Below, piece after piece: positions 900-46,760 of a DNA stretch of 64,000 nucleotides. Numbering within the stretch: position 1 is the stretch's first letter; each line of letters begins with the position of its first letter. The DNA is from Zygaena filipendulae. Its lineage: Eukaryota; Arthropoda; Insecta; Lepidoptera; Zygaenidae. The notes below the pieces were generated by a model. It ran no database searches. It worked only from the letters and a program-made list of their open reading frames with translations, and was not told where the DNA came from. Location of the stretch: the NCBI GenBank assembly GCA_907165275.2, contig CAJRBF020000005.1, positions 434,001 to 498,000 on the forward strand, written 5' to 3'. A program made the translations under genes and the position numbers.

Positions 900-1483
900 G
901 TTACAGTGTCCTCTCTATTTAACTTAATGCAATCCATCCAGGGAATTCTCAGAGGGTATGGCTGGATAGTTTTATACCATATACCTTTTTGTTTGGAGCG
1001 TTCGTCAAAGTACTCCTTCCACAAATCGTAACACCTGTTCTTCACAAACTTGACACAGTCTAGGTAGAAGGGTTGCACATCAAATGGAATGCCATCACTC
1101 GCAGCCTGTTTAGCCAGCATGTCCGCCGTCTCATTGCCGTGAATGTTAGTATGAGATGGGATCCATTGTAACGTAACGGTCTTTGCTTGGGATTTTAATT
1201 TGGAAATGATTTCCAAAATTCCATAGGCTATCGGGACTCCTCGAATCGTCGAGGTACACCGAGCCACATGTTGCAACGCGCTTCTGGAGTCTGTGAGAAT
1301 AACAAACTTCTCACCTTCTATGGTGCCGATGTACGATAAAGCTTCAGAAATAGCTACCAGTTCAGTGAACATTATACAGACATTTACGTTAATTTGGAAC
1401 TTTGCGGAGATGTCTAATTGGGGATCGTAAAAGGCCGCGCCAGTGCCATGGTCGTCTTTCGAACCGTCTGTGTATATAGAGTA
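900..1483 (-). pseudogene. RNase H domain of the same LINE, out of frame
   Basis: On the minus strand from about 1483 the translation reads 'YSIYTDGSK', the first catalytic Asp block of RNase H. It then gives 'MFTELVAISEAL' (catalytic Glu), 'ILTDSRSALQ' (second Asp) and 'WIPSHTNIHGNETADMLAKQA' (the HGNExAD block with His and the last Asp). All four acidic positions are present, so the domain itself is intact in sequence. However, its frame differs from that of the RT upstream, and the 3' part ends at the inserted poly-A at 899. The apparent C-terminal Phe run is just the poly-A read in reverse. Confidence 0.8.
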
Positions 1484-3579
1484 GTATCCTTGATATTTTC
1501 TATTTTACTTTTTGTCGCCGATATATCTAATCCCAGCTCCCGAAACAAATTGTACACAAGAACCAGAACAGCCTGAATTTTCTCTTCAGCTCTGTGCGCG
1601 TGTTTTTCGGTGATATATAGCACATAATCATCCGCATACTGAGATATAAACACATTACAATCGCGGACTTGCTTACAAATTTTGATAGTTGCCAGGTTAA
1701 ACAAGAGTGGAGATAGGGGATCTCCCTGAGCTAAACCACAGCCTGTGCTTCTAGAAACAGTGTAGTCACCTAAAACTATACTAAGACTCCTGTCTCGAAG
1801 GAATTTCCATAGGTAGCTACAGATCTTCAATCCAACACCTAAGTCATCCAGAATATATAACATAGTCTTTATGTCAACATTGTTATAAGCGCTATCAACA
1901 TCTAGAAAGCAGCCAAGTGTTACGTAACTTTTAGAAAATCCTATCTGTACTCGCGATACCAAACTGCTTAGATTATCCAAACAAGATCTCGATTTCCTAA
2001 ACCCAGTAGTCTCATTAGCCAAAAGTTCATTTTTTTCAATATACCATTCTAGTCTTTTGTTGATAATAGAGTGAAATATTTTACACAAACACGATATCAG
2101 GGATATCGGATGAAGAGATGCCACATCAGAGGAATTTCGACTAGCCTTAGGGATAGGGACAATCTGTATTTGGCGCCACTGCAAGGGTACAAATCCCTGC
2201 GTAAAGAATGAATTATATAAATTCAACAGAATAGATTTTCCACTGTCTGGGAGGTTTTTTATCATAGAAAATGCAATATTGTCACTGCCCGGTGCAGTAT
2301 CTTTAGGTTTTATGCTATTTTCTAGTTCACTCATAGATATAGGAATTTCTAGTTTTGTATTTGAAGAAACAAATCTGGGGTAACCGGGGCATACTGAACA
2401 CGGAGCCAAATTCCTAAGTAATTTCTCAGCGATTACCTGGTCTACTTGAAGGCCTATCGTTTTTCTGCCTTTTAGCCATCTCATACGTCGCCACATATCA
2501 CTAGATGAGGAAACATCATCGATAGATGAGCAAAATGCGCACCAGGATTCTCTTTTGGCTTTTCTGATCATTCTTTGCGTTTCTCTAAGTTTATCTTTAT
2601 AAAACATAAGATTTTCTGGCGTGGAGTTTTTCCGAAACTTGGCTAGTGCTCGCCTGCGTTCTGCTACAGCTTTTGACAATGAAGCGGACCAATAAGGCTT
2701 TGGCGCGAATTTACTTTGTGGAGTTAGCGGGATTTTGTAAAATGGAATGTGTTCGTCGGCTGCTCGATTTATACAATTTGAGAATTGATCATATGCTTCT
2801 TGAAGTTCATCAGACAGCCGAAGGGTAGAAAATGCTTTATCTGTGCTTTCTTTATAGGAGTTCCAGTCCGCCTTTTTGAGGTTTCTTTTTTTAATAAATT
2901 TTGAGGCATGGTTCGAAAAGGCAGTTATCTTTATTACCAAATGATCACTTGTTTCATTGGTCGAATACCATTCGAAATTAAGTGCCACGTCTGAGGTTGC
3001 AGTAGAAATATCTGGTGCAGATTCTTGCAGAATGTTATTTGATAGCCTGACGCGAGTGGGATTGCCGTTATTTAATGTTACAAAATTACTGTCCAATAGA
3101 GAATCAAATATTTGTGTCCCTCTCGTATCAACTTTATAGGACCAATTTGTATGGTGCGCATTAAAATCTCCTAGCACTAAAGCTTTTGCTGTCCACAAAG
3201 AGAAAATGTGATCCCAATCGTATGGCTGCGTTCGAATTGTAGGTGGACAATACACCGAGACTATATATTCAATGCTTTCACAATTAAAGATTCTGACACA
3301 TAAAATTTCGATTCCGGGATTATAAATTTGGATTGGGTGAATTTGAGATTTAATGGACGTGTGTGTTAGGATTGCTACTCCTCCGTAGCCATCATACCGA
3401 TCTAGACGAAAAATATTGTACCCTCTCACCTGAAAACTGCTATCAGGCTCTAACCATGTTTCAGACAATGTTGCAATATGTATTTGTTCTTGGGAAAGCA
3501 GTAACTCGAACTCCGTTAACTTAGGCCTAATACTCTGAGCGTTCCACTGAAGGATATTAAGTTTAGTTTGTCTCGCCAT
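1414..3579 (-). pseudogene. LINE ORF2: endonuclease + reverse transcriptase, truncated at the C side
   Basis: 721 residues. The APE endonuclease domain is at residues 1-220: N13 in 'QWNAQS', E40 in 'LSETW', 'GDFN' at 137-140 and 'SDH' at 211-213. The reverse transcriptase follows, with 'LDVDSAYNNVD', 'GLAQGDPLSPLLFN' and the catalytic YADD at 648-651. In full elements roughly 200 residues of thumb and connection separate YADD from RNase H. Here only ~40 in-family residues follow ('LGLDISATKSK'), and the frame then runs out of phase over the start of the RNase H domain and stops. The best reading is an internal deletion with a frame change near base 1490-1500, so the encoded enzyme would be incomplete. 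Confidence 0.8.
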
Positions 3580-14802: not shown

Positions 14803-16953
14803 GTGCCGGTAACAGCTGATCGCTTGGAGCGTATGAGAGTTGATTTGATTAGTAACTTGCCTTTTTTACAATCCAATTTAGATCCAAATTCTTTATATAA
14901 TTCATTCTTTCATTCATTCACTAATCAGTTTAACACAATATTTAGTTCCAGAGTGATTACAGTTACTGAAAGTCCAGTGTTTAGCGATTGGGCAACGGTA
15001 GGAATACATAAAAGTAGGCAAGTGTTATACAAGTTGTACTATGAAAGACAGTTCAACAATGGTGAAGAGTTTAAAGAATATTTAAAATCATACTCAAAGA
15101 TTTTCAAAAACGTTTGCGTGTTGGCTAAATCGCATTTTATCAGTTCTAAGATCAAAAATAGTAATAATAAAATTAAGGCTACATGGAAAGTAATTAATGA
15201 AGAAACTGGTAAAGCTAAATTTAATGATACTACTTTCAAGTTATGTGTTAATGGAAAAGTTATTAAGTCAGATTTGGAAGTCGCGAATGAGTTTGAAAGC
15301 TTCTTCGCTAATATACCAGTTTCTTTAACCAGCACTTTAAGCTCTTCCACCACGATTTCGGAGTCTCTTCTTAAGGCGAATGTTCCAGAATGTGCTAGTG
15401 AATTTAATTTTAGCTATGTAAGTGTATTTGATATTTTTAAGGTTTTTAAGACAATAAATCTTAAGAAAACCGCCGATTTGTGGGGGATTTCTGTTACGAT
15501 TATAAATTCATTGATTGAAATTATTGCACCAGATTTAGTTATTATATTTAATAGATGTATAGACTGTGGTGTGTTTCCTGACCTAATGAAGTATAGTAAA
15601 ATAACACCTTTGTTTAAAATAGGTAGTACATCGGACCCTAATAACTTTAGACCAATTTCGGTACTACCAACATTTAGTAAAATATTTGAAAAGCTTATGC
15701 TAGACCAACTTATCATATATTTTTATAGAAACGACTTGCTGCATCATAAACAGTTCGGTTTTACTCGTGGTCGCTCTACAACTGATGCAGGAATCAAATT
15801 AATTGAAAATATTTTTGAAGCTTGGGAGGAGTCACGCGACGCTTATGGAGTGTTTTGTGATTTGTCCAAGGCATTTGATTGTGTTTTGCATACAACTTTG
15901 GTCAGGAAGCTACACTACTACGGAATAAGAGGCGTGGCTTTGGATCTTCTTACTTCCTATTTAAGTGATAGGATCCAAAGGGTTGAGGTCAACGGCAAGC
16001 GATCAAATGGATCTGCCGTAATGATGGGTGTACCGCAAGGATCTATATTAGGACCATTCCTGTTCCTTGTCTATATAAACGACTTACCTTATCTGGTGAA
16101 GGAGACCCATGAGATAGTATTGTTTGCAGATGATACATCTTTAGTATTTAAGGTTAATAGACAGCAATCGGCTATAGACGATGTGAACAATGCTCTCTCT
16201 AAAATAGTACACTGGTTTAATGCTAATAATTTATTACTAAACCGCAGTAAAACTAAATGTATTAGATTCGTAACAAAAAATGTCAAACAGGTTAAAACGA
16301 GTGTAAAACTTAACAATGACGATTTGGAACTGGTCGATGAAACTGTCTTTCTGGGTATAACACTAGACGCAAAATTACAATGGGGCTCACATATAGAAAA
16401 GCTATCGGGCAGACTTAGCTCAGCTGCTTTTGCTGTTAAGAAAATTCGTCAAATAACTGATATTAATACTGCACGTCTAGTTTATTTTGGTTATTTTCAC
16501 AGCATTATGTCATACGGTATACTGCTGTGGGGTAATGCCGCAGACATCGAGTCTATATTCGTGTTGCAGAAACGAGCTGTTCGGGCCATCTATAAGTTGG
16601 GCCCTCGGGAGTCATTAAGAACTAAATTCAGCGAGTTTAAAATAATGACTGTATACTCTCAGTACATATACGAGAATTTATTATATGTTCACAAAAATTT
16701 AGGCAACTTTAAGAAAAACAGTGACTTACATAATCATAACTTAAGAAATAAAGACAAACTCACTGTGCCTACTAGTAGGCTGCATAAAATTTCTAATTCT
16801 TTCAAAGGGCAATGTATACGCTTTTACAACAAACTGCCAAACGATGTGTTTGATTTGTCAATTAATAAATTTAAGAGCTTGATTAAACGCACTTTGTGCG
16901 ATAAAGCCTATTATAGCGTAAAAGATTATTTAAATGATACAAACGTTTGGTAA
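14803..16953 (+). pseudogene. LINE ORF2, reverse transcriptase part (frameshifted from EN)
   Basis: 716 residues are open from before 14803; the frame begins inside the A11 run, so no separate start codon is needed. Motifs in order are 'NNFRPISVLPTFSKIFE', 'FGFTRGRSTTDA', 'VFCDLSKAFDCV' (catalytic Asp), 'GVPQGSILGPFLFLVYINDL' and 'FADDTSLVF' (catalytic Asp pair). A thumb region follows, and a C-terminal tail ends 'AYYSVKDYLND'. There is no RNase H. The pattern fits the CR1/Jockey branch. Apart from the frame break the domain looks complete. Confidence 0.85.
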
Positions 16954-21733: not shown

Positions 21734-23443
21734 CTATTTTAAGATGTTTAATGAAAAAGTTCCTGGATGCTGTTTTCTATCTTCAGATTGTTCTAATTCT
21801 TCCAATGGTATATTGTTAGTATTGGTGGATGTGGGTGTCTTGAATTTCTTGAAACTTCCATAGCGTCGATTCAGTACAATGAATATAAGTACTGCAGCAC
21901 CCAATAGTATACCATACATTGGTATCGTAGTATGGTATAATGCACTTGTAGGTAGATGTTCTATTTGAAGCGGAGCCTGGGCCGATATTTTATCTTGAAG
22001 GTTTCTAGTTCTTCCAGCTTGATTGAGTTCAGGGTAATAGTAGGCTTACTTGTAGTTTCCTCGTTATTATAATATGGAATTTTCATTATCTTCAACGGCT
22101 TTCCTTCTATGTGATTATTAATATTGATGATGGTGAATTCTTCAGTGCGTAGACGACAGGTCTGTGGAATGGTTGCTAGATAACTGCCGTAGAGTGTATT
22201 GTATTCTTCGCGTTCACAGGATAGCTGGACCTTCGTTGGTTGCGGAAATACGACTATGTAGTGTCTGTCATCTAGTTTTTCCATAAGTTGTCTTGAGATT
22301 GATACTTTGGTAGTCTTGCAGGATTCATTAGATTGTTGAAGAATTAATTTTTGTATGCAGTTCGGTTGAGATCGAATTTGATGTTCCATGCCTTCCTCAC
22401 ACAGGTACGCGTTGCTTAACTTCGGGCATTCAGCCGCAATGTACACGTAATAATTCTCATTGGTTGCTATATAAGGATAGGGAGGTACTAGGATTTGATT
22501 GAATTTATTAGGTAAAATGGATAATTTATAAAGATCATGATTGCGGGGAGACGATTGGAAACCTAAAGACTATAACTAATTTATTCTTATTAAAGTATGT
22601 GCCTGGCTTAATTACGTTATAATATTCTCTAATTTCTATATCTAATAACTGTTTCCTTTCGTAAATGGTGCTTAACTTAAGTAACATACTATTTAATATT
22701 TCTACACTTAACATTGAATGATGAGTGCTCGATGCACGCGTAAAAGCTAATATATCTTCTATTCTACTTAATTCACTTATTAAATCGTCTATATTCTCAC
22801 TAACTATCACTAACAATTGGGTCAATTTTGCGTACTTCAATAAATTGTCTTGGTATGACCTATTATCTCGAATGATTAAATGTATTGTCTTATTAATTCT
22901 ACTCTGATTGTCCAACATATTCGATAAAATATTCGTATGATGGGACATCCAATCTTTACTTAAACTGATAAAATTATTAAATTCAGATACTGTCCTATCT
23001 TGATTATCTTTTAGAACTTTAATGGCATCATCGTATTTTACTGCATCTGTATAGTCTAAGTTACCCGTTATACTTTTAATTACAGATCCCAAACCATCTA
23101 CTAGACCTCTTTTAATTCGAGTAGGTTCTAAGCCTTTTAAATGAGATGATGCTTTATCTAACTTAGCACTAAGGTAGTTAATTTGGGTGTCAAATAAAGG
23201 ATATGTTTTTTCAGGTAGTTGGGTCTTGAGTTGTCTTAATTGGTCTTGTACTATGTCAATCTTGTCTTTAATTTCGTTCAATTCAGTGTATTGTAGGAAG
23301 GTGTGATGATGAGTCACTAGCTGTACGGGTCCAAGTTTAAATGGTAGCAGTCCAGGTCCGTCATTAAAGCTTTCAAGTTTTATCTCTTGGGCTTGTACTA
23401 GGTGGATGATCAGTGTCAGGGTTAACCTGTAACAATGTAGCAC
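21734..23443 (-). pseudogene. env: env (envelope glycoprotein), broken by two frame shifts
   Basis: It starts at the ATG at 23443 and overlaps the pol end by 71 bases. The first part (23443-22535) has a hydrophobic signal-like N-terminus. A furin-type site RIKR at residues 109-112 is followed by a hydrophobic Gly-rich stretch that fits a fusion peptide, then long helices. The middle part (22446-21961) is Cys-rich. The last part (21919-21734) has a membrane span 'GILLGAAVLIFIVL' and a short charged tail. Frames change near 22540 and near 21995. The family relation is to insect errantivirus/baculovirus-F-like envelopes, which fuse membranes. In this copy the protein is interrupted. Confidence 0.8.
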
Positions 23444-26400
23444 TTTTTGGTACTCGTTTTAACCGTGACTTAGCTACGGGACCTCGTTTTCTAGACGTGT
23501 AAATATGTATAGGTAAATCGGCAAGAACAGTATCATGAGTATATCGGGGTGCTAACTTCTGTCTACTAGCTGATGGGTTTCTAATGAAGACTTGTTGTTC
23601 AGGCTGTAATTCTACTTCAGGTTCGCGGTCCCTATTTCTATTCTCAATGATATTAGTACGGTCAGGTAAAGTAAATTCATTTATAATGTCATATACTTTT
23701 TTCATCTGTTCCTTATGTGTCTGCATATACTGTTGTAATAATTGTTCAGTCGGGTTAAAGTCAAGGGGGTCTCGGGGGTCATAGTGTCCTGTTATTATGT
23801 CATAAGGTCGGCATTTAGTAAAGCTGTGGACAGAACTATTGTAGGCTAAAATGGCATATGACATTAAATTAGTTGCTGGTTCATCTCGTCGCTGCAGGCG
23901 TAAAATTCTAAGATGTTCCAATAACGTTGAGTGGAAGCGTTCTATAGTGCCATTATCGTTAGGTGCGTGAGCTAATGTTTTATGATGGGTTATTTTATGA
24001 ATTCGTGTAAATTCAGCAAACATTTGGTTCGTGAATTCAGTGCCTTGATCTGTAATAATTGTTAAAGGGAGACCATGGTGCGTGCAGAATGTTAGTAGTG
24101 CTTGAATAATACTCACTGCCGTGCCATCTCGCAATAGATAGGCTTGCCCATATTTAGAGAACACATCTACGAATGTAAGGTACTTTTCATTCTGAGCAGT
24201 AAAGAGATCCATATGAATGATTTCAAAAGGCTTTGTAGCCGCGGGGACAACATTAAATTGCTGTCTAATGGGATGGCGATCATATTTCGCCTGGCCGCAT
24301 ACAGTACATTCGTTAATATATTTAGTTATTTGCTCTTTCATTTTAGGCCAGTAATACTTCCGTGACAAGGCTAGGTAGCTTTCATTAATTCCTCGGTGAT
24401 TCGTTTTTCCGTCATGATAATGCCTTATTATATCTTGTTGCCTAAGATATTCCTTAAGGTTTTCAAGTTCTCTTTTTACTAAAACCAAATTCATAGACGA
24501 GTTCTTAAAATATTGCTGTAAAATCGGTACTATTGAAAACATACTAAGAGTTGGCGTAACTAATATACCTGTTTTAACTCTGGGGGAAACGTATTCTTTA
24601 ATCGCGTCAATCAAATCTCTTTCTAAGTTGGACTCGGATAATTGCACTGAAACTCGGGTATGAGTGTCAAACGGTTTCGTTACTTTCGGTCGTCCTTTTA
24701 TGTCACCAACTATAGTCAAACATAACTGCCTATGGAATTTATTAAGAGGATCGTCAGAGATTGGTATTTCAAGAATGGGATTTTCACTATCTGTATGTAC
24801 TGTCTCAGTGGATGATCCATGTAATGATGGGGCTGTATCAGTGGATGATCCATTCAGTGATGGTTGTCTTTCTGTGGGATTAACTACTAAAGAGTCTGTT
24901 TCCTCATTATTTAATTCAACTCGCGATAGAGCATCGGCGTAAGTGTTATATTTGCCCTTCTTATATATAACTGTATAGTCGTACTCACTTAGCTTAAGAC
25001 GCCATCGAGTGAGTCGTGAGTTCGGCTCCTTGATATTCATTATCCACTGCAAAGGCTTGTGATCGGTAAGTATTTTAAATTTACGTCCAAACAAGTATGG
25101 GCGGAAGTACTTGGTTGCCCAGACAATGGCAAGTAATTCTTTTTCAATCGTACTATAATTAATTTCACTTTCGTTAAGTGTACGAGAGGCGTACGACACA
25201 GGCTTATCGGATCCAACAGTTCCTTGAGAGAGTACAGCGCCTATTGCAAAATTGGATGCGTCCGTCGTCAGTATGAATTCTTTATTAAAATCTGGATATC
25301 TTAAGATAGGGTCATTAGTCAGAAGTGTTTTACATTTCTCAAAGCAATTTACGTACTCTGGGTCAAGGGTTATCTTTTTACCTTTCTTTAAGCATGAAGT
25401 CAGGGGTTTTGTGATGCGGGCAAAGTCAGGGATAAATTTACGGTAATATCCAACGAGTCCTAAAAACTGTTTAATTTCCTTTGGAGTTTTAGGTACTGGA
25501 TATTTTTGAATGGCTGAGATCTTGTCAGGGTTTGGTTTAATACCTTCATTACTTATAATGTGTCCTAAATACGCGGTTTCCATTTTTAAAAATTCGGACT
25601 TGTCCATCTGTATTTTGAAGTTTGATTCTTTCAATCTCTGAAATACTTTTCCTAAATTTACAATATGTTCCTGTAACGATGTGCTAAAGACGATAATATC
25701 GTCGAGATAGACGAGGCAGATAACGTTTTGTAGGCCTCATAAGACATTATCCATCACTCTTTGAAAGGTTGATGGAGAATTCTTAAGTCCCATGGGCATT
25801 CGAAGAAATTCGAAGTGCCCGTGTTCCACATTAAACGCGGTCTTGGGTATGTCGTTTGAATCCATCTCAACCTGATAAAATCCGCTAGCTAAATCTAGGG
25901 TACTAAAATACTGACACTTTCCTAGTTTATCAAGAACATCGGTTATGTTCGGAATAGGGTATTTGTCATCAATAGTCTTTTCATTGAATTTACGGAAATC
26001 GACTACGAGACGCCATTTTTGGCGACCTGAGGCATCTGCCTTTTTGGGGACTACCCAGATAGGGGAGCTCCAAGCCGAATCAGAAGGTCTTATTATACCC
26101 TGTTCCAACATTTTTGAAATTTGGTCTCTAACTTCCTGTCTATGTATAAAAGGATAGCGATAACTTTTAGTGTAAATCGGAACCTCATCAGTTGTCTTAA
26201 TACCGTATTTGATTTTATTAGTGAACGTTAATGGTTCTCCATCGATATAAAATACATCAGCGTAATTAGAACAGAGAGATAATAAATTAGCGCGTTCTTC
26301 ATCATTTAAATGTTCCGTACGTAGGCGAGAGAGTACTTCATTTACACGCGAGCTCGATTTTTCAGTGCCCGTGCACTCAATATTAAACAAGTTAGCGCTT

Positions 26401-27002
26401 GCGGGACGGTCTAACGAAAATATGATATCATTCTGCGTAGGGTTCTCTAATTCAACGATACCTCGACTGTTCCATACTATGGTTAAGCATTCGCGAATAT
26501 GACAATTACACAATACCTGTTCCTCTACAAGTACCTCACCGTCAGCTGCGTTGATTGGAATTCTAATTAATTTTGAACTATTAGCTGGGATCATGTCCTC
26601 ATATAAATTAACATTCCGGGAGTTATACATTTTTATCGGATTCACTGCTAATTTGGTATTCAATGTTAAATCTTTAAAATTAATTTGGGCTTCCCATTTT
26701 TGTAGTAAATCTGTACCTATAAGTCCGTCAAAGTGGTTATGAAAATTATAAATTAATAATGTTACGTTGTCAGGATCATTGAATTCAGAAAAACTAGGGA
26801 CAGTTATTGAATAATCATTCTGGCTTGTTGCGTGCACGTTAGTAACTTCAAATGGATCATAATTCAAAGGATAGTCAGAAAAATATTTCTTTACAGCATC
26901 CGGGCTGATGAATGATTGATTCGCGCCGGTATCAATTAGGATATTTAATGGTGGATTTGAAATACTAATATATGGTAACTGTCGCTGGGTTTGAAGATTC
27001 AA
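23373..27002 (-). pseudogene. pol: pol: protease, reverse transcriptase, RNase H, integrase; one in-frame stop
   Basis: 27002-25737 encodes the aspartic protease ('ILIDTGANQSFIS', 'HFDGLIGTDLL') and RT fingers/palm ('KWRLVVDFRKFN', 'FSTLDLASGFYQVEMD', 'PMGLKNSPSTFQRVMD'). A TGA at 25737-25739 interrupts the same frame just before the catalytic 'YLDD' (minus strand near 25710). 25634-23373 continues with 'TTDASNFAIGAVLSQG', 'TIEKELLAIVWATKYFRPYL' and 'TDHKPLQW' (RNase H). The integrase has a zinc domain 'HRGI..C-x2-C' and the catalytic triad in 'IHMDLF', 'IITDQGTEF' and 'NDNGTIERFH'. Pol is expressed by -1 frameshift from gag, so no ATG is needed. Confidence 0.88.
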
Positions 27003-33044: not shown

Positions 33045-35537
33045 TCAGTTACGGCGAGAAGTTTGGACAGGTAAGGAGAGATTCTGCTGTTCCAGCAGGT
33101 ATGCCTTGAGCTTGCGCCCAAAAGCATATCTACTAGATGCGTCTCGGACTGGAGGTGGAATGTCATTCCAACACTTGGACGCCGCAAACTTGAAGCTACC
33201 ACGAAAAGCTGCCGTTCGATGTGACGGAGTGAGAATTTTGTCTCTGTGTATGGAGCGCTGCCGGGATGACCACTCTAGCTTTTTATATAGGTACTCGGGA
33301 GCCTTGTTGCGTACCACACCAAACATTAGCGAGGCCAGATGGAGGCGCCTACGGGATTCCATATTCAGGAGCTTTGCAGCGCTCAAGTAAGGCGTGACAT
33401 GGGATCTGAAAGGAATTTTAAAACAGAAACGAGCACATGCGTTTTGTACTCGTTGTATTAATTTTCTTGTCCGGCCAAGTATACAGCCACCATAGACAAC
33501 ATCACAGTAGTTTAATCTAGACAGTATCAACGACTCACTCAGCCTAACACGCAAATCAGTGCTGAGATAATCGCGTATACCATACAGAACTTTGAGACGA
33601 TAAAAGCAGTTGCTGACCACGTTTTTGATGTGGCTTTCAAAATGTAGTTCACCATCCATGGTCACACCGAGATTTTTTGCTTCTATCACCCTTTCTACCG
33701 GTTTGTTCATGATAGCTATATTATTGACCGCAAGAGCTTGCACCGTATTATGGATTTGATTTTTAGTGCCAAGTACCATGTACTTAGACTTGCCAGGATT
33801 CAGAGCGAAACACCCCCTATCAGACCACGCAGCAATGTGATCGAGATCCCTGTTGATCAGATTGGCAGCCTCACCTGCTTTAGATGGTAATGTGGAAATG
33901 TACAACTGTGTATCATCAGCATAAAGATGGAATTTGCTACTCTCAATTTCGTTAACGACATCGGCACTATAAAGAATGAACAGCAGGGGCCCTAATATGG
34001 AGCCCTGCGGTACACCTCTAGTTAACTGTTTTGCTGCAGAGTATACCATAGTGCCATTATTTTTATGCAGACCTACTAATTGCGCGCGAGCCGACAGGTA
34101 ACTGTCAAACCACCGAACCGTAGCATTATCAAATCCATAATACGACATCTTCGATAGCAAGAGGGGGATACTCAGGCAATCGAAGGCCCTGGAGAAATCT
34201 AGCAATACCAGAATTGTGCTCCTTCCCTTGTCAAGCTCTGACAACACATTATCTACGACGTCAAGCAGAGCAGTCGCCGTACCTCGACCCCTCCTAAAAC
34301 CTGACTGTAAGTCAGGCAGTATACCATTTGTCTCCAGGTACTCCGACACCTGACCATACACAGCCCTCTCCACTATCTTAGACATGCAAGGAAGTATACT
34401 GATAGGACGGAGGTCAGACATGTGGACAGGGTTAGGCTTCTTGGGAAGAGGAGTAACTTTCGCCGTCTTCCAGTCGGTCGGAAAAGTGTTTGTCAGTATG
34501 CTTCGATTAACCATTTCAGTTAAAATAGGCAAAGTCCTCGGTAATGTCAGTAAGATCATGTCAATGTCAATCAGGTCAACTCCTTTAGCACTAGTTTTTA
34601 TTGTTGTCAGTATTTTTGCAATTGCAAAGGGAGTTAAAGTTCTAAGTGTAAATGTAGTAGCCTTGTCATGTCGATTAAATTCGAAATACGTCAAATCAGA
34701 AATGGAAACGTCAGTCTTACCGGGCAAATTCAAAAAGTGGTTATTTATCGCGTCAGCGTCATTGTAGTGTGAGGGTAGTTCCTGATTACGTTTTTCCGGC
34801 AGAACAGTGCGTTTGAGATTTTTCCACAGGCGCTTTGAGTCATCATACTGGTTTATATTTTCTTGGAAAAAGGCACGCTTCTCATAAATAAGGGCAGAGA
34901 CAACCAAATGTTTAAGATCTAAATAATATTTTTTGACTGTATTAGTTTTTGTTACTTTGTACCTTTTATGAGCCTCATCGCGAAGACGCATCATCAAACG
35001 CACAGTGTCTGTAAGCCACGGTTTTGGTGACTCCCTCCTAATAACAGTCCTTACAGGTGCATGTCTGTCAAAAAGTCCAGTAAGAAGTTCATTAAACTGT
35101 CTTACCATAGTGTCAATATCGTCAAGTCCAAGTAAATTGTCCCAGTCTATCAACTCCAAGTCCTTGTCAAAAGAGTCACGGTCTATGTTCTTTAGGGGTC
35201 GATAAGTCATAAATCTGGGCTGAGTTCTTTGTTTTTTTACGTCTAAATCCACAGTAATAAAGGCATACTTGCCCAGGTCCGGTATGTGTTGCACAACCAT
35301 GCCAGAGATGCGTGCGTCGGTGCAAACTAGGTCGATAGTAGTCTCGCTGTGATCAGTGAAGTGTGTGGGCTGATTAATGATTTGCGTTAAACTTAATGAA
35401 GTCAAGAATTGTGTCAAACATGTGTGGTTCCTATCATAAGAGTCAGAGTAGTTTATGTTGAAGTCACCCACCAAAACTATGTTGTCATAACCTGTAAAAG
35501 AAGTTATCGAGTCAGTGATTGCATCAAAGAATAGCAT
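33045..35537 (-). pseudogene. LINE ORF2: end of endonuclease plus reverse transcriptase
   Basis: 830 residues. It begins inside the endonuclease ('NIVLVGDFNINYSD', 'TTIDLVCTDARISG'). The RT follows: 'MSDLRPISILPCMSKIVE', 'QSGFRRGRGTATALLDVV', 'LVLLDFSRAFDC' (catalytic Asp), 'RGVPQGSILGPLLFILYSAD' and 'FHLYADDTQLYIS' (catalytic Asp pair). The C-terminal region has 'VQNACARFCFKIPFRSHVTP' and 'FAASKCWNDIPPPVR'. There is no RNase H. The true N-terminus is in the frame at 35524-35901, so a one-base change near 35530 splits ORF2. The apparent start at 35537 is not a real initiation site. Confidence 0.85.
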
Positions 35538-36407: not shown

Positions 36408-37346
36408 TTATTTGTTTTTAAAAATATCAACTATGTCGCTTTCCTTGCGGATACGATGAGCCGGTTGACCCTCAGCGCGTCGCATGTAGACCCTCCCATC
36501 TCTGGTCCATACCCATCGCCAGGCGTGGAGTCGGGCTTCCTCGCGGGCTTTTGCGAACAATTGCCTATTTACTTTTGTCAGGCGTTCGTTGACATAAAAA
36601 TGCCGTGGCTCGCCGCTTAGCCCTAAATCAGCCGTGGTCGCGCTGCGGCGTACACGCGCCCCGCGCAGCAGCGCATCGCGCGTCGCTCGCCGCGACAGCC
36701 GCACTACCAGTGGCCGCGGTCGCCGCTCACCGTCCCCCGCGTTGCGCGGTCCGACCCGCTCGACGCTCACTATATCGCGTTCGTCCACCGGCACACCGAG
36801 CTTAGCTGATATCAGTGTGAGCAGATGCACAGGATTCTCACCACGCTCTTCAACGACATTGCTTATTTGGACGTCATTAGCTAGTAAGTCTTGATCCCGA
36901 TCACGCAGTTCCATCTGTAGTTTGCTAAGAGCCTCCTCCAAGACCCCAGTCCCGGCCGATACGGCAGCGTTCGCGAGCCCTCTCTCTATGCCGTCGACTC
37001 GCAGCTCTAAAACGTCGATACGTCCCACACATACCCCAAGGCCGTCACGAAAATCTTGAATCTCCCGCCTAAACTCCTGGATGTCAGTGCGCATGCCCTG
37101 CACCTCCTCACGCAGCTTCCACATCTCTCGTACCAACATTTGGAGCGGATCAGTAGATCTCGAGCTCTCGCCGTCGACATCGTCATCGCTATCAAACAAA
37201 CGCGGGCGCTTGCTACGAATGGTGACCTTTGACCCTTCCGTTGTACAACTTGATTGCGCAAGATTTGGCTCAGACGCCGACGCAGAGAGCGGAGATGCAA
37301 CCGACAATATCGCCCTAGGCGGAGTTCGTTCCGGATTGATAGGCAT
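36408..37346 (-). CDS. LINE ORF1 protein (coiled coil, Baculo_FP-C-like end)
   Basis: 312 residues, uninterrupted. The N-terminus is Ser/Pro-rich. A basic-acidic patch 'RSKRPRLFDSDDD' may be a nuclear signal. Residues ~65-160 are a long coiled coil ('MWKLREEVQGMRTDIQEF'). Residues ~190-310 have the pattern of the FP25K C-terminal domain found in ORF1 of many arthropod LINEs ('RPRPLVVRLSRRATRD', 'HFYVNERLTKVNRQLFAKAR', 'WRWVWTRDGRVYMRR'). It should bind RNA as a trimer. It is markedly GC-rich compared with its surroundings, while its own spacer is AT-rich. Confidence 0.8.
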   Translation of the reverse strand: MPINPERTPPRAILSVASPLSASASEPNLAQSSCTTEGSKVTIRSKRPRLFDSDDDVDGESSRSTDPLQMLVREMWKLREEVQGMRTDIQEFRREIQDFRDGLGVCVGRIDVLELRVDGIERGLANAAVSAGTGVLEEALSKLQMELRDRDQDLLANDVQISNVVEERGENPVHLLTLISAKLGVPVDERDIVSVERVGPRNAGDGERRPRPLVVRLSRRATRDALLRGARVRRSATTADLGLSGEPRHFYVNERLTKVNRQLFAKAREEARLHAWRWVWTRDGRVYMRRAEGQPAHRIRKESDIVDIFKNK

Positions 37347-39006: not shown

Positions 39007-39668
39007 TTAGAGATAAATTGCAACTTATTAAATGTAGTTTTGAATCATTCGCATCTGTAGGAAATAATGATAGGAACATGGAATTATAATAAGCAATTGC
39101 ACCAACATAGTTATAGATAATACAGCATACCAGATATCCGTAGGGAACACGGAGCAGTGCCTGGGACTTGCGACCCAGGTGTAGGTTTAAGAGGCTCCCC
39201 CACGCCAATAACCTTGGGCGCGCGAGCTTTCTTTCGTCCCACCCTACCTGACTCACCTCTGTGTAATTACGACATTTGAGTTATAAAAGCGCCATCTTTT
39301 AAAAAGTATTACTATTACTAATTATAATGCTTAGAACGACATCTAACAGATTTTCCTCGTACTACAATAAACTGCGGTGCAAGCGATAGCGGGAGGTTGT
39401 GTTGCGCACGTCATTTTTTTTTTTTTTTTGTTATGGCATCGCGCGGTTTGCGCATTTTGCCAGTTTCAAATTTCAGATTAGACAAGCTCTACCATTATAG
39501 ACCCGGAGTCCAGGCACAAATTTTATCACACAATATCATCACAATATTAAATAAAACTATGTAAATTTACTAGAAAAATTTATTCATACAATTTGTTTAT
39601 TGTAACAATCACAGTAAGTAACAGTAAAATGACTGTATTTTTAAATAAATAAAAAATGTAAAATACCT

Positions 39669-39956
39669 AGTTATGTCGCCAGCACCATCTAGTCGTCATG
39701 CGTTTCTTGCAGCCTAAGCTTTATATGATAAACACTCGCTGGACGCTAGTCCCGCGCCCACGCTTTGCGCACCTGACGATTTGATGATGAAGCATTGTCG
39801 GCCAGACGGCCACCCAGTAGTTTGTAAGCATTAGAATTAAGAAACTCCTTTTTGTATTCAGTCTGTACTAAAACACCTAAGGGCTAACACATTAAAGCTT
39901 TTTAATAATTAAATTGTCTTTTTAAAAAGCCCTCTCGAGCGCCCAAAAACTTGACT
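39669..39956 (+). repeat. 5' LTR
   Basis: 288 bp, starting AGTTATGTCGCC and ending AACTTGACT, like LTRs of the gypsy/17.6 group. No difference from 45946-46233 was seen by eye. Confidence 0.93.
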
Positions 39957-39973
39957 GGCGCAGCCGGTAGGAT
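39956..39973 (+). promoter_or_regulatory. Primer-binding site (tRNA-Ser type)
   Basis: TGGCGCAGCCGGTAGGAT starts on the last base of the LTR. It matches the serine-tRNA type seen in the other errantivirus (28619-28637) except for one base. Confidence 0.85.
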
Positions 39974-40618
39974 ATCTCGCGAAAATTGAATACCATCGAT
40001 CGCAAGCACAAAAATCGGTTTCGCGTGTGGTTTTTCAAGCAGATATCCCTACGAACAAATAAATACGTCTCCTGTTGGAAGCTCGTGTAAAGGTGTTGAC
40101 TGACTCCGGAGGACATGGGATTGAGCAGCTGGTGAGTAAACCTTTTCACATCCTGTCTCTATCATATTCCCAATTTTCTTCGTTAAAAAATATCCGAACT
40201 AAAATCGTCGGACTTATTAATTGCGTTTATCTGATTTTGTTTGCACTAAAATTGGCAACTTGTGATTCTCGTGATTAATTTGTGTTAGTATTAAGTGATT
40301 ATATTTTATAAATTAAGTATGTGTTATTTTTGCACAAAAATAGGCAAAATAATAATTGAATAAATTGAAATATCTGATGTTAAAAAGAATAATGAAAATT
40401 ATAATTGAATAATATATTAAAATGATAAATGAATAAAATATTTTAATGATAAGTGAAATACATTAAAATAAATAATAAATAATAAATGAAAATGATAAAT
40501 GATTAATATACTAAAATAAGTAAAGTTATAATTGAGTAATTTCTTTTGCATTTTTATAATTACATAATACATATAATTAATTTTCTTTTGATTTTTTTAA
40601 AATAATTTCTTTAAAATT

Positions 40619-41000
40619 TTGAAGTGAATTTCCTTACGTATCACATTATAATTATTGTTGTTTTTCTTACATTTTTATAATTAATTTCTTTAATATTTTG
40701 GTACGCAGTTCTTTACTTGTAATTACATAAATATTATATCAAATTGGAACGAAGTTTTTATTCGTAATTACATATTATTATAATTCTTTTTCTTTTTACA
40801 TTTTTGAACGAAGTGCTTTATTTTAATTGCATATTATAATTAATTTTCTGTTTACATTTTGGAACGAAGTTCCTTATTTTTCATACAGGTTATAATTAAT
40901 TTTCTTTTTATACTTTGGAACGAAGTTTCTTATTTTTAATTTCATATTATAATCAACTTTCTTTTTACATTTTGGAAAGAAGTTTTTTTTATAATTGCGT
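40619..41000 (+). repeat. Degenerate ~57-62-bp tandem repeats in the 5' leader
   Basis: At least five copies share 'ggaacgaagtt' (near 40746, 40807, 40862, 40918, 40975) followed by '..catattataatt' and a T/C-rich run; a more decayed copy is near 40619-40700. They sit between the primer-binding site and gag, the place where gypsy carries its insulator. The upstream leader 40360-40540 is a simple 'aatgataaatgaata'-like repeat. Confidence 0.75.
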
Positions 41001-41048
41001 ATACTTGTTGATTAAAATTAACATTCATAATTTGGTGATTCAATTTAA

Positions 41049-43271
41049 GTGAAAATGGAAGGAATTCAATTAATTCAAAAAGAAATTTTGTGTATTATTC
41101 CTAAATACGATGGTGACGAAAAATTATTAAATCTTTTTATTTCAAAGTGTGAATATGTACTTAGCGGTGCTAGAATACCAGGAAATTTAGCACAAGAATT
41201 ATATCTTTTTCACGCCATAAGCGGTAAACTTACTGGTAGAGCTGCGTCTCTACTTAGCGATAATCCCAATATAAAGTCATGGGATAGATTGAAAGAAATT
41301 CTTACACAACATTTCGGCGATCCGCGATCGGAAGCATGCATATTGATCGAATTAGAAACTATGAAAATAAAACATGGAGAGTCTTACATAGAGTTTTGTC
41401 ATAGAATCCAAAACGTGCGTAGTTCTTTGATAGCAAAAGTAGTTAGACTTACCGATGAAGGAACCAAAGCAGCAAAAATGATAATTTATAATAATACGGC
41501 TTTGAATGTATTTTTATATAGCCTACCTGAGAATTTAATTCATATTGTACGTTTAAAGGGTGGTGATACCCTCGAAAATGCTTTAAGTATTGTGACAGAA
41601 GAAGTAAATTTCAAATTCCAGTATAACGCACGAAATAAATTAGCTAAGCAACATAATCCGTTGATGCCAGTGCCTATGGCTCAAGGTTTTTACAAACCTG
41701 CATTTAATTTATCATCGAATAGTAATTTCAGATACAGTATTCCTAATAATAATATGGCTCAAGGATTTAATAAGCCCACAATTAATTCATCACCGAATAG
41801 TAATTTCAGATACGATATTCCTAATAACAAGCCTACATTTAACTTAACATCGCCGGTTAAATATGGCATTCCTCAAAACAACTTTAAGTATGGCATTCCT
41901 CAAAAAAATTTTAAGTTTGGCATTCCACAAGGGCATGCCATTAGACCTAACTTTTATCAGCCAAATTTTGCATCCCAAGGTCACCAATCTAGACCTTCAC
42001 CTTTTTATCAGGCACCTTTTCAACAGGCGCGCCCGCCTTTCCAATACGGTGGATACAAATTTGGAATCCCTCAGCAACAAGGTCTTAAATACGATATTCC
42101 AAACCAACAGGCACCTAAGCTTGAACAGACAGACGTGTCGATGCGCACAGCACCTATTAGACAAAATATGATACATGACTTATTTTATACTGAAGAACCA
42201 CCCCTAATTCAAGAAAACGATAACTACTACTATACAAACGAAGAAGATCAACCTAACGACCAACCCCCTAAAGATTGTAACATAGTTGAAAACTGTAACT
42301 TTACAACTAGAGTAGAGAAACCTCCTAGTTGTATAGTTGTAGAGAATAATGTAGAGAATAATGTAGAGACTGAACTCACTCAGGATTTTGATTTTTCTGA
42401 AAAAAACTTCGAAGGACATGGTGTGGTGATAAATTTTAATTCTTGTGATAGTATTCTAAAATTACCCCATATCGAAATCCCGGAAATCAACTCGAAATTT
42501 CTCATTGATACCGGAAGTACTCGTTCTTTTATCAGTCCTGCCAAAGCTAATGAATTCTTTAAAGAGTCTAAATATTATGAACCATTTACAGTAATGAGTA
42601 CGCATGCTAAAAGCTCGCATAACGAAGTTATTAATATCCCATTATTAAAAACATTCAAAAGTACATTGCCTCATACATTTTATATTTACGACATTGATGG
42701 ACGATATGATGGACTAATAGGCTCCGACCTTTTAAAAAAATTGTCAGCGACTATTGACATGAAAAATCAGACTCTACGGACACAAAATGCAACGATACCT
42801 ATACATTATAACCCACCGTACGAAATAAATGTACCACCTACATCCGAAGTACACGCAAAGATACCAAGTAACTTACAAAACGCAGACGATATTGTTAATT
42901 ATGATAATTTTGTTCAGAGAGATAGTGTACACATGCCTTCAGCTCAGTGCAATAACTTCTTTGTTGACACAGATAAACAAAATTTTGTTTCGAATTTGTA
43001 TGGAAAGAAATCTACCATATATACTGATCATAGACCGTTAGCTCGATTGAAATTTATAAAAGAGCCGAACAGTAAACTAGCGAGATGGAAACTACGTCTT
43101 GCAGGATTCGATTATCAAACTATTTATAAAAGCGGAAAGCAAAATTCCAATGCCGACGCTTTGTCACGGATGAAAATTAATTTATTAGAGGAAAAATATA
43201 ATAATTCTATGAAGGTGAACTTAGATAAAAAAGAGCCAAAAACTCCAATTTTACTTAAACAAGATAAATAA
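41049..43271 (+). CDS. Gag-protease fusion ORF with pol deletion (740 aa)
   Basis: Residues ~1-195 are a retrotrans_gag-type capsid region ('SWDRLKEILTQHFGDPRSE', 'ESYIEFCHRIQNVRSS'). Residues ~210-360 have repeated (R/K)(Y/F)xIP(N/Q) motifs (seven seen) in Asn/Gln/Pro-rich sequence. An acidic Asn-rich linker comes next, then protease ('KFLIDTGSTRSFISP', 'RYDGLIGSDLLKKL'). Shortly after, the frame jumps to the end of RNase H ('YTDHRPLARL', 'KQNSNADALSRM'). RT with its YxDD and the first RNase H Asp/Glu are gone, yet the frame stays open. No -1 shift separates gag and protease here. The start is the ATG at 41049 or the second ATG at 41055. Confidence 0.8.
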   Translation: MKMEGIQLIQKEILCIIPKYDGDEKLLNLFISKCEYVLSGARIPGNLAQELYLFHAISGKLTGRAASLLSDNPNIKSWDRLKEILTQHFGDPRSEACILIELETMKIKHGESYIEFCHRIQNVRSSLIAKVVRLTDEGTKAAKMIIYNNTALNVFLYSLPENLIHIVRLKGGDTLENALSIVTEEVNFKFQYNARNKLAKQHNPLMPVPMAQGFYKPAFNLSSNSNFRYSIPNNNMAQGFNKPTINSSPNSNFRYDIPNNKPTFNLTSPVKYGIPQNNFKYGIPQKNFKFGIPQGHAIRPNFYQPNFASQGHQSRPSPFYQAPFQQARPPFQYGGYKFGIPQQQGLKYDIPNQQAPKLEQTDVSMRTAPIRQNMIHDLFYTEEPPLIQENDNYYYTNEEDQPNDQPPKDCNIVENCNFTTRVEKPPSCIVVENNVENNVETELTQDFDFSEKNFEGHGVVINFNSCDSILKLPHIEIPEINSKFLIDTGSTRSFISPAKANEFFKESKYYEPFTVMSTHAKSSHNEVINIPLLKTFKSTLPHTFYIYDIDGRYDGLIGSDLLKKLSATIDMKNQTLRTQNATIPIHYNPPYEINVPPTSEVHAKIPSNLQNADDIVNYDNFVQRDSVHMPSAQCNNFFVDTDKQNFVSNLYGKKSTIYTDHRPLARLKFIKEPNSKLARWKLRLAGFDYQTIYKSGKQNSNADALSRMKINLLEEKYNNSMKVNLDKKEPKTPILLKQDK

Positions 43272-43334
43272 ACAAATATTATATTTTTTTTTTAAAGAAT
43301 ACATACGACGTAAAATAAAACATTTCTCTTAATT

Positions 43335-44060
43335 CGAAGCTGAAATACATCAAAAGCAATTTTAAATTCACAGAGGAATTAAGGAAACACTGGTGCATCT
43401 TAGGCGAATTTCCAGTTTAATTAATGCATGCGATATCTGTGAAAAATTTAAGTACATCTACGATCGTAAACCATTTAAACTAGTTATCTCAAACTCAAAC
43501 TAATCTGTTCCAGGAATTATTCATACATACTTTTTCTATAGAAGGAAGAAATTATTTAACGATAATATAATCGATGCTTTAAAGAACTTTTTTTTAATCA
43601 TTAAAAACAATGTAGTTCACTTACGATGAGTTTAAGGTGTATTTGAATACCTATTTCCATAAGTTCCAGCTAATCAAAACATTTAAATTATCTTATCGCT
43701 AATATACATTTTAAGTTTGTTTTTTTAATATATTTAAAGAGTTGCATTCTCTTAATTCAGTTGTTAGGCCTTTATATAACCGTGCTCCTTCAGACATAAT
43801 ATTTTTCTGTCCATATCCAGTTCTATGTTTAAAAAGTTTTAGCTTATTCTTGTCTCTTAAGTAAATCGACTCCAGAAGCAGTTAGAGCACTTATCAAATA
43901 TTTTTCAATATACGGTATCCCTAGCAGAATTAGCTCAGACCCCGGTACTGAATTTAATTACACATTAATCAAAGAAATATTATTTTATAAAATTGATTTT
44001 TCACATTGGTACTTCGCAAAATCCTAACTCTATGGGTATTGTAGATACCACTCTACTATT
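43335..44060 (+). pseudogene. Integrase remnant
   Basis: Around 43370 the plus strand reads 'HRGIKETLVHLRRISSL' followed by 'ACDICEKFKYIYDRKP', the zinc-binding HHCC region. Around 43924 it reads 'SRISSDPGTEF', the second catalytic Asp block. Stops and frame changes separate these parts; the first Asp and the last Glu blocks are not recognisable. Remnant only. Confidence 0.65.
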
Positions 44061-44429
44061 ATAGAATTTATCGTATAGCAAAATACCAACTAAAAATTAC
44101 TGATACTGCATCTGTTATGTCTTATACAATCCTCTTGTATAATCATTCTATATATTCAACTACGGTTCAAGCCATTATCAGCCAGGATAAATGTATTGTC
44201 ATCAAAATTGTTTGGGTCAGTGAATTTAATAAATTATAATACTGGCTTCAATTAAACTTGGTCTTATTATATTATGTTTTACATTAGGTACTTTTATATT
44301 AATACGTATCATGGAGTTGGCCGTGTACTAGACGCCATCTCTATATAGCATATACTAGTGATGTCCTATCATAATAGTGACGCACTCATAACAAAAATCT
44401 TAGATCTTAATTAGTTAGTTTATGATCAG

Positions 44430-45879
44430 TTAGAATTAAATATTAATAGTCTTCTTACTCTTAAACAACAATTTGGTAGCTGTTATCAAATGAAAGTATT
44501 CCTTACGATTTTATAGAAGTCGAAACACAAATAGAACATATTACGAGTAATATTAACGAAAAGTATAAACAATTGGTTCTCTCATTAAGAAAGACCTAAA
44601 CGCGGTTTCTCTTATACCTCTTGGTTCATTAATAAAATAATTTACTGGTAATTTGGATAATGATGACGCAATAATGTACGAAAGAAACTAAACAAGTCCG
44701 AACCGATAAGAAAATGAGAATTATCGCTGAAATGGTGGGTACCTACTATTATTACAATAGCCGACTCTACATTGAACAATTTCATTCAGTTGGAGGAAAG
44801 CTTACAAGATATTAACCGTTTATAACCGAATCAAAGTTGCTTCAAACAGGCAATAAAATAATTCACATATTTGATAATATTATTACAAATAATTTTCAAA
44901 CGCTCTACATCCGGCTGAACGAAATTGAAACAGCTGTTGCTTTTGCTAAAATTATGTTATTTCATCAATCAATTGTAGATACCGTTGAATTATTATTACT
45001 GTTAAAATAAATTTAAAAAACTGAAAAAATAGTTTTTCCAGCAATCATTGAAAATGTTTTTAAAATAGAGCAATTAATAGAGATTAAGGCATACGTGAAA
45101 CAAAATCAGATAAAGTTTATTATGCACATTCCATTAATTAGATATGAAGTTTTTAATTATTTTAAATTGATTCCTTTACCTGTGCATAATATCAGCAGTT
45201 GCATTACAACCCTTATCCTTCCTAAATACCCCTACCTTCTTGTGAAAGGGTTGAACACTAAGCCGCTCTCCCAGTCATGCAGTGAGATCGACGAAGCCCG
45301 TTTCCTGTGTTTTGAAAATAATGTCTCGCCGCTGATTGAAGATAATTGTGTTTCACACATTTGAGGTTTTCCACTAACATTTCAAGTTGTCACCCTGTTC
45401 CGGTGACTATTGATGACGTAAGAACTGCTCTTATTCAGCCCAATCGCTGGATAATTTACGCAAAAACCGAAATCCTACTCACAAAATACTGTGAAAACGA
45501 AATAACTCAAGAAAGCATCTGTGGAACCTATCTTTTATCCATGGATGACGATTTCCAAATTAAAATAAAAGAACTTAAGATAGAAAGACTCCAGCATCAG
45601 GGGAGAGACATAATTTACCCAGACTTCCCCTTATTTAATCTAACTAAGATAATAACCGAACCATCAGATGTCCAGAGAAAACCCTTCAACATAAACGGAA
45701 TAGATCTCATGAACATCCAGTTCCTGAATTATCTGCAGAAAAGTGAAAGTGAAATAATCAATAGTGAAAAAAGTGAAAGTGTCTTAGATCATAAGTACCT
45801 TAGCGTAGGCAATTTTGTGTTTTGCGTAATTATTATAATTATTTTATTACTTTTGCTACTTTTTGCCTATAAACATTAA
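44430..45879 (+). pseudogene. env remnant with intact membrane-proximal end
   Basis: 44440-44720 holds scattered env-like pieces, including a decayed cleavage-site region near 44600, with stops. 45095-45364 and 45346-45879 are two overlapping frames of the Cys-containing ectodomain end. The second ends with a membrane span (residues ~153-174, 'FVFCVIIIIILLLLLL') and a very short tail. The layout parallels env of the element at 21403-28944. No complete envelope protein can be made from this copy. Confidence 0.7.
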
Positions 45880-45936
45880 GAAATTTTGTGAAAAACCTCG
45901 AGATAATCCTCCTCTGTTGGATAATCTCGAACTTAC

Positions 45937-45945
45937 GGAGGGAGG
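45937..45945 (+). promoter_or_regulatory. Polypurine tract
   Basis: GGAGGGAGG directly precedes the 3' LTR, the plus-strand priming site. Confidence 0.8.
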
Positions 45946-46233
45946 AGTTATGTCGCCAGCACCATCTAGTCGTCATGCGTTTCTTGCAGCCTAAGCTTTA
46001 TATGATAAACACTCGCTGGACGCTAGTCCCGCGCCCACGCTTTGCGCACCTGACGATTTGATGATGAAGCATTGTCGGCCAGACGGCCACCCAGTAGTTT
46101 GTAAGCATTAGAATTAAGAAACTCCTTTTTGTATTCAGTCTGTACTAAAACACCTAAGGGCTAACACATTAAAGCTTTTTAATAATTAAATTGTCTTTTT
46201 AAAAAGCCCTCTCGAGCGCCCAAAAACTTGACT
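45946..46233 (+). repeat. 3' LTR
   Basis: 288 bp, reads as identical to 39669-39956. The target duplication ACCT follows at 46234-46237. Confidence 0.93.
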
Positions 46234-46286
46234 ACCTAGCCCGGAAGATTGCTTTTAAACAATAAGGTAACCAGTTGTTCTTTATT

Positions 46287-46760
46287 TAACCGACTTCAAA
46301 AAAGGAGGTTCTCTGTTTGACTTGTATGACTGTATTTATGTTTTTCCATGATAATCTTGCTTTTGACTGAACCGATTTTGATGCGGTTTTCGGAAAAGTA
46401 TTTATTACACTTAAGAGCAGGTTTTGTAAAAGGTTATGAGTTTGAACCGTATGTATGTATGTTTGTCCGCGATTATCATGCATCTACCTGAACTGATTTT
46501 GATGCAGTTTTCAGAAAAGTACAGTTTTTACATTAGGAGCAAGTTTTATTATTAACCGACTTCAAAAAAGGAGGAGGTTCACAATTTTTATGTTTGTATA
46601 TTCATTTATTTATTTTATAAGTGTATGTACATGTAAAATCGATTGATAAACTACACCGATTTTGATGATTCTTTTTTTATTTGAAAGCTTATAGTTTCCC
46701 ATTGGTCCCATATCAAGATCATCAGGATCTGAGTTCCACATCAGGGAGAAACCCTACTGC
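46287..46760 (+). repeat. 'accgacttcaaaaaaggagg' dispersed repeat, two copies in tandem
   Basis: Copies start at ~46288 and ~46554 with 'accgacttcaaaaaaggagg'. Both continue with a region containing 'ccgattttgatg'. It is a repeat family frequent in moths and butterflies. Confidence 0.75.

Follow-up and report, generated by a model that had tools for sequence, protein, structure and literature searches.

How can a retrovirus-like element that has lost its polymerase keep making new copies, and which of its proteins must it still make? The question is raised by an element at positions 39669–46233 of a 64,000-nucleotide stretch of the genome of the lepidopteran Zygaena filipendulae (GenBank assembly GCA_907165275.2, contig CAJRBF020000005.1, positions 434,001 to 498,000 of the forward strand; this whole stretch is called the window below). 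The element has the hallmarks of an errantivirus, with long terminal repeats (LTRs), a primer binding site, a polypurine tract and a short target site duplication. It has no reverse transcriptase (RT) of its own and no working integrase or env, and is hence an errantivirus derivative rather than an autonomous member of the group. We conclude, with a probability of about 0.82, that it is one copy of a long-lived, non-autonomous satellite lineage that is mobilised in trans. One ancestral deletion took RT and the front of RNase H, and the lineage went on to insert itself at least 12 times. Over this time its gag core and protease stayed constrained, whereas decay set in throughout the RNase H tail, integrase and env. 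The action of a helper we infer from this pattern, and the best reading of the sequences is that the satellite Gag-Pro probably still works.

A preliminary description of the locus had taken it for a trans-mobilised gag-protease parasite, with identical LTRs between ACCT duplications, a deleted RT, broken integrase and env, and an open reading frame (ORF) spanning the deletion as though still useful. These observations hold. The two 288-bp LTRs (39669–39956 and 45946–46233) are 100% identical, and ACCT stands on both sides (39665–39668 and 46234–46237). The ORF (41049–43271) has 740 codons from a GTG, or 738 from the ATG at 41055. Pfam finds no RVT_1 in it; it finds an aspartic protease at residues 481–558 (E 0.006, weaker than the curated cut-off) and, at residues 644–685, only positions 64–105 of the 105 in the RT_RNaseH profile. 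Ka/Ks, the test proposed there, indicates that the gag core and protease are under purifying selection and that change behind the deletion junction is neutral. Further copies with the same junction, and an RT-bearing relative with the same primer site, both exist, as the description had proposed to check. Its interpretation is supported; mobilisation in trans itself we infer. The fusion of the gag and protease frames, a core older than the ends, recombination with the helper type and similar fusions in other Lepidoptera go beyond it.

The deletion is shared. The genome searched was a single 366-Mb assembly of 56 contigs, in which junction-spanning DNA (window 42800–43271) has 19 matches, 14 of them, including the window copy, with the deletion. 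All 14 have the same junction (42979–42999), and the joint itself varies by nothing more than point differences; the L012 and C47 copies have a 3-bp gap about 25 bp upstream. Given this common junction, we reject independent deletions of separate full-length copies. Relative to L017, the RT-bearing copy described below, about 1,374 bp are gone between window positions 42983 and 42999, comprising the whole of RVT_1 and the first part of RNase H; divergence of the core makes it hard to place the edge to within a few bases. Both edges in L017 bear a similar short A/T-rich string, which is more like a template jump. We reject a spliced intron, since the apparent edges of the missing stretch lack GT...AG. 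Three of the places (L018, L019 and L020, on the small contig C47) have identical 200-bp left flanks and represent either a segmental duplication or assembly redundancy. We count them as one insertion, which gives 12 insertions. The left flanks read, from 11 parasite insertions (all but L042, on C42), look unrelated. In all 11 insertions with both sides read, the 4-bp target duplications match, and all are of the form ANNT, as is the AAAT of L017; the decayed copy L023/L024 has ACCT on both sides.

Several independent insertions with one defect are one mark of a trans-mobilised element; a second mark, a relative that has RT and shares the cis signals, is also seen. L017 (on C23) retains the 1,374 bp absent from the parasites. 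Its gag has 426 codons and its env 486, and its pol, which lies in the -1 frame, is open for 1,292 codons. Pfam matches RVT_1, RNase H, integrase and Baculo_F in L017 but nothing in its gag, and its protease is recognised by similarity to the window ORF. The LTRs of L017 are identical to each other (0/288) and differ from parasite LTRs by about 1%. It carries the same primer binding site as the window element (39957–39976), and its leader and polypurine tract are of the same type. A genome search with the L017 RT, in which 40 of 57 candidates were scored so that counts are lower bounds, gave at least one full copy, one half copy (C50, 99%) and pieces of a decayed copy (C22, 78–92%). The same search gave other families at 66–75% identity, including at least 15 long matches at 69% with near-equal scores. 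We did not count C50 (L011) or C17 (L014) as further RT-complete or deleted copies, since their matches end inside RT and inside gag, respectively. Thus, 12 parasite insertions stand against one RT-complete copy found.

Comparison with L017 also reveals a fusion. Residues 1–445 of the parasite ORF (41055–42389) correspond to L017 gag 1–416 at 83% identity, residues 447–643 to pol 5–201, and residues 642–729 to pol 653–740. Hence, frames that are separate in L017 are one frame in the parasite, where the protease part (42390–42983) lies in the gag frame and not in the -1 frame. The fused state is common to eight further parasite copies in an alignment of the fusion region, including L023, which matches residues 65–695 in one frame, and L042, which has a private frameshifting gap near the fusion site. 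The other open-ORF copies are fused, as their single frame indicates. L042 is only 3.5 kb long and was used in the junction, ORF and fusion checks only.

The parasites are mosaics of old and young parts. In ten parasite copies (L018 and L020 were dropped as duplicates of L019, and L023 was left out of mean divergences and variant counts), the mean difference from L017 is smallest in the LTRs (1.0% for the 5ʹ LTR; 1.1% for the 3ʹ LTR, with nine copies). It rises through the leader (3.1%), the first part of gag (5.5%), env (8.4%) and the RNase H tail (14%) to 18% in the gag end and protease; the integrase aligns poorly in this comparison. Between the window copy and L017, the synonymous divergence (dS) is 0.08 in gag residues 1–200 and 0.96 in the protease. 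The core is far older than the helper-like ends. Furthermore, single copies carry patches nearly identical to L017, in leader, gag and env. At 45601–45945, L010 differs from L017 at 1 of 344 positions, from L016 at 10 and from eight other copies at 29–36 (P 2e-10 for the patch against the window copy). L016 differs from L017 at 2 of 194 positions at 45751–45945. The leader of L022 at 40707–41054 is identical to that of L017 (0/302), with L015 one difference away from L022, and at 44851–45150 L022 differs from L017 at 8 of 297 positions but from other copies at 24–28. These patches indicate recombination and hence, probably, co-packaging.

The LTRs suggest that the lineage has persisted and was active recently. 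The two LTRs are identical in 8 of 10 elements (the window element, L009, L010, L013, L015, L021, L022 and L017), differ at one position in L012 and at three in L016, and differ at 5 of ~288 in the decayed pair L023/L024. At 2.9e-9 per site and generation, a rate for butterflies, 0/288 differences bound a single insertion to less than about 1.8 million generations (95%), so the preliminary description's "very recently" stands only as an upper limit. L023/L024 would be roughly 3 million generations old, and already has the deletion. The preliminary description had named gene conversion or assembly collapse as what might account for LTR identity. Neither collapse nor blanket gene conversion does, because there are nine distinct LTR haplotypes among ten loci, and both LTRs of a locus are alike in eight of the ten.

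How would such a lineage spread? We propose that parasite RNA, with its L017-like leader, primer site and polypurine tract, is packaged into mixed particles built of parasite Gag-Pro together with helper Gag and Gag-Pol. Helper RT would copy this RNA, and helper integrase would insert the copy at ANNT targets. Template switching within the mixed particles would keep the parasite ends matched to those of the helper. Gag-Pro has probably been kept either because it favours its own RNA (cis preference) or because a bad Gag would spoil the shared particle.

An alternative explanation is that the helper is another, more distant errantivirus family (66–75% identical in RT), and that L017 is merely the source of the recombined ends. 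One full L017-type copy set against the many near-equal RT matches at 69% speaks for such a helper. However, the recombined patches are of L017 type in leader, gag and env alike, and the LTR ends, primer site and ANNT targets fit L017 (the LTRs were compared with those of L017 only). We consider this alternative unlikely. A little less likely is that the mosaic ends arose by gene conversion between integrated DNA copies, rather than by template switching in particles. Conversion could have produced internal patches such as that of L022 at 44851–45150. However, the LTRs are locus-specific haplotypes, and L010 resembles the helper at its env end and in both LTRs at once, as reverse transcription predicts.

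The fused ORF of the parasites is open from the ATG in 8 of the 12 insertions, with 716–765 codons; in L015 it ends early through a frameshift behind the junction. Among the eight open copies (28 pairs), the mean ratio of nonsynonymous to synonymous substitution rates (dN/dS) is 0.32 for the whole ORF. By residues, it is 0.16 (1–200), 0.36 (201–400), 0.44 (401–470), 0.22 (471–600, the protease), 0.29 (601–643) and 0.71 in the tail behind the junction, an in-frame C-terminal remnant of RNase H with the stop codon (42999–43271) that has evolved about neutrally. Counts of nonsynonymous and synonymous variants in up to ten copies, with integrase and env read in the frames of L017, are 15:26, 39:27, 21:11, 21:22, 11:8 and 26:9 for the same six segments, 111:37 for integrase and 152:59 for env. 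Against tail, integrase and env together (289:105), the counts differ for residues 1–200 (P = 4e-6), the protease (P 0.0013) and 401–643 as a whole (P 0.0017). Insertions and deletions (indels) agree. In the nine copies without gross gag damage (L019, L023 and L042 are left out), all 13 indels before the junction are multiples of three, as against 3/30 in the leader, 14/56 in integrase, 4/39 in env and 0/1 in the tail; 13/13 compared with 21/125 for leader, integrase and env gives P = 1.6e-9, the counts being of distinct gap intervals, some of which are not independent of one another. In the L017 frames, the integrase remnants (43272–44400 in the window copy) of ten copies have 7–11 stop codons each, an approximate count as part of this piece is poorly aligned, and the env remnants (44401–45929) have 2–5, with many frame-shifting indels in both. 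We find no support for env as a gene still in use, given its many frame-shifting indels and a ratio of nonsynonymous to synonymous differences per site (pN/pS) of 0.59. There is, then, purifying selection on the gag core and protease after the deletion, and approximate neutrality behind the junction.

It could also be argued that these are ordinary non-autonomous copies that spread in trans, and that the gag-protease ORF is a mere leftover, open because the copies are young. Identical LTR pairs in seven of the nine parasite copies compared and a broken ORF in 4 of 12 insertions would fit. However, internal differences of 3–6% between parasite copies imply time for decay, and the integrase and env of the same copies did decay; moreover, the in-frame indels and variant ratios are not those of the decayed parts. 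We therefore regard a leftover ORF as improbable, slightly more so than gene conversion. Least probable by far is an assembly artefact or the segmental duplication of a single insertion, as the C47 triplicate might suggest, since the remaining flanks that were read seem unrelated to one another and a separate target duplication marks each insertion.

Several observations weigh against a selected, trans-mobilised satellite. The four broken ORFs belong to L016 (two in-frame stops), C47 (a deletion in the 5ʹ part of gag), L023 (decayed) and C42 (a private frameshift and a stop). Tested against the small tail alone, where tests are weak, only gag 1–200 (P = 0.0013) and the protease (0.036) fall below 0.05, with 0.19 for 201–400, 0.59 for 401–470 and 0.24 for 601–643; residues 401–470 are indistinguishable from neutral (binomial P 0.10). 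The in-frame indels fall to 13/16 once L019, with its gag deletion, is added, and to 14/20 with L023 too. Recombination with helper gag could have renewed the gag core. Safer evidence of selection comes from the protease region, which differs from L017 by 18%, yet this region holds 43 variants. The genome searches, made in one assembly and with 40 of 57 RT candidates scored, found no RT-bearing source of the old core.

The remaining parts of the element, which reads on the plus strand, are as follows. The primer binding site is presumably of tRNA-Ser type. The leader (39977–41054) is long, AT-rich and helper-like (mean 3% from L017), with tandem repeats of about 56 bp at 40760–40984. The gag end differs between copies by whole tandem units of 78 bp and 12 bp, at 41675–41830 and ~42340–42410; where the ORF is open, this variation keeps the reading frame. 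An interspersed repeat of about 285 bp (43578–43864), present at many other genomic places and absent from L017, lies within the integrase remnant of the parasite copies and has thus been carried along by retro-copying. The polypurine tract (45930–45945) adjoins the 3ʹ LTR. There is no Rfam match at the gathering threshold in 39600–46300, and the gag-pro DNA matched nothing in a phage collection, which is what one expects of an insect element.

The window is rich in retroelements. A second Gypsy-type element occupies 23376–27002 on the minus strand, with RVT_1 at 25740–27002 and RNase H and integrase at 23376–25634. Three further RT ORFs lie at 1417–3579 (minus), 14803–16950 (plus) and 33048–35537 (minus), two of them with an endonuclease domain (non-LTR type). 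An ORF at 36411–37346 (minus) with a Baculo_FP_2nd domain adjoins a non-LTR element.

Are such fusions confined to Zygaena? A protein search with the window ORF gave 180 proteins; among the 120 listed, all those with an organism name are lepidopteran, and 104 match L017 gag alone, 11 pol alone, four gag and pol, and one gag and env. Pfam finds no RT in the four gag-pol proteins. P0001 joins gag to pol 16–189 and 745–1292, and P0110 (Pectinophora) joins only the end of gag to pol 2–177 and 712–882. In P0024 and P0114 (Maniola) pol starts at about 701–703, and hence the protease is missing too. Because the length window of this search shuts out full gag-pol fusions, a second search was made with the gag of P0001, allowing 625–1,990 residues. 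It gave five proteins including P0001, all of them lacking RT; Maniola has a second protein of the P0114 arrangement, P0121, which is 88% identical to P0114. In a gag tree of 111 rows, fused forms fall in groups that are separate from one another and have good support (one with the window copy and L017, others with P0001, with P0024 and with the Maniola pair); P0056 (gag and env) has no resolved place, and P0110 is not on the tree. These few cases are protein entries only, of which those from NCBI could be gene models with RT passed over as an intron, and the contigs of the others may be transcripts. They suggest that RT-less gag fusions recur across Lepidoptera. We tentatively raise the possibility, which we hold to be somewhat less than even, that lepidopteran errantiviruses repeatedly spawn long-lived satellites by loss of RT and fusion of gag to leftover pol. 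The fused Gag-Pro would be kept for a cis function, the ends would be re-dressed from the helper by recombination, and the satellites would outnumber and might restrain the helper.

The kin of L017 are presumably the TED-like lepidopteran errantiviruses, with which it shares 4-bp duplications, a Baculo_F-type env, and a -1 shift between Gag and Pol; the window copy, in contrast, has neither RT nor a working integrase or env. Plant TR-GAG elements are non-autonomous LTR elements that keep gag, as does this insect lineage, but we know of no helper-matched mosaic or protease fusion among them. A survey of mosquito LTR elements describes non-autonomous elements without coding sequence (PMC3286476). 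Searches of an open-access library, which covers few subscription journals, listed no RT-less errantivirus with a selected gag-pro fusion. The closest parallels are in vertebrates. For bovine ERVK[2-1-LTR], the defective morph is described as outnumbering the competent one, and in this pair, as in MusD/ETn and KoRV-A/RecKoRV, an old central segment is reported between helper-like flanks, with mutual recombination (PMC10924933). The window lineage likewise has an old core between helper-like flanks. It differs in that its gag-pro is open and selected, while the bovine defective elements are reported to lack any intact ORF for gag, pro, pol or env. In mouse, an internal deletion in IAP I-delta-1 (1delta1) joins gag to pol in one ORF; the element is reported to need Gag and Pol in trans, to cause most new IAP insertion mutations and to encode a cis-acting fusion protein (PMC6466679). 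Our element resembles it in having an internal deletion and one fused gag-pol ORF and, we believe, in depending on supply in trans. However, it is an insect errantivirus and not a vertebrate class II endogenous retrovirus, its deletion removes RT and keeps a selected protease, an env remnant is present, and gag and protease were joined by a frame change separate from the deletion. Cis action, reported for the mouse protein, is here a possibility, the fused ORF and its selection being what the sequences show. The window lineage offers a natural case of a retroelement without polymerase whose capsid and protease genes have stayed under selection while it was copied many times over. In each single copy, integrase and env have decayed and serve as built-in neutral controls, so that what a retrovirus parasite must still make becomes measurable, and the mosaic of old core and helper-like ends would be a record of RNAs packaged together. 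Mouse IAP I-delta-1 and the bovine pair of competent and defective elements have in it a counterpart among insects.
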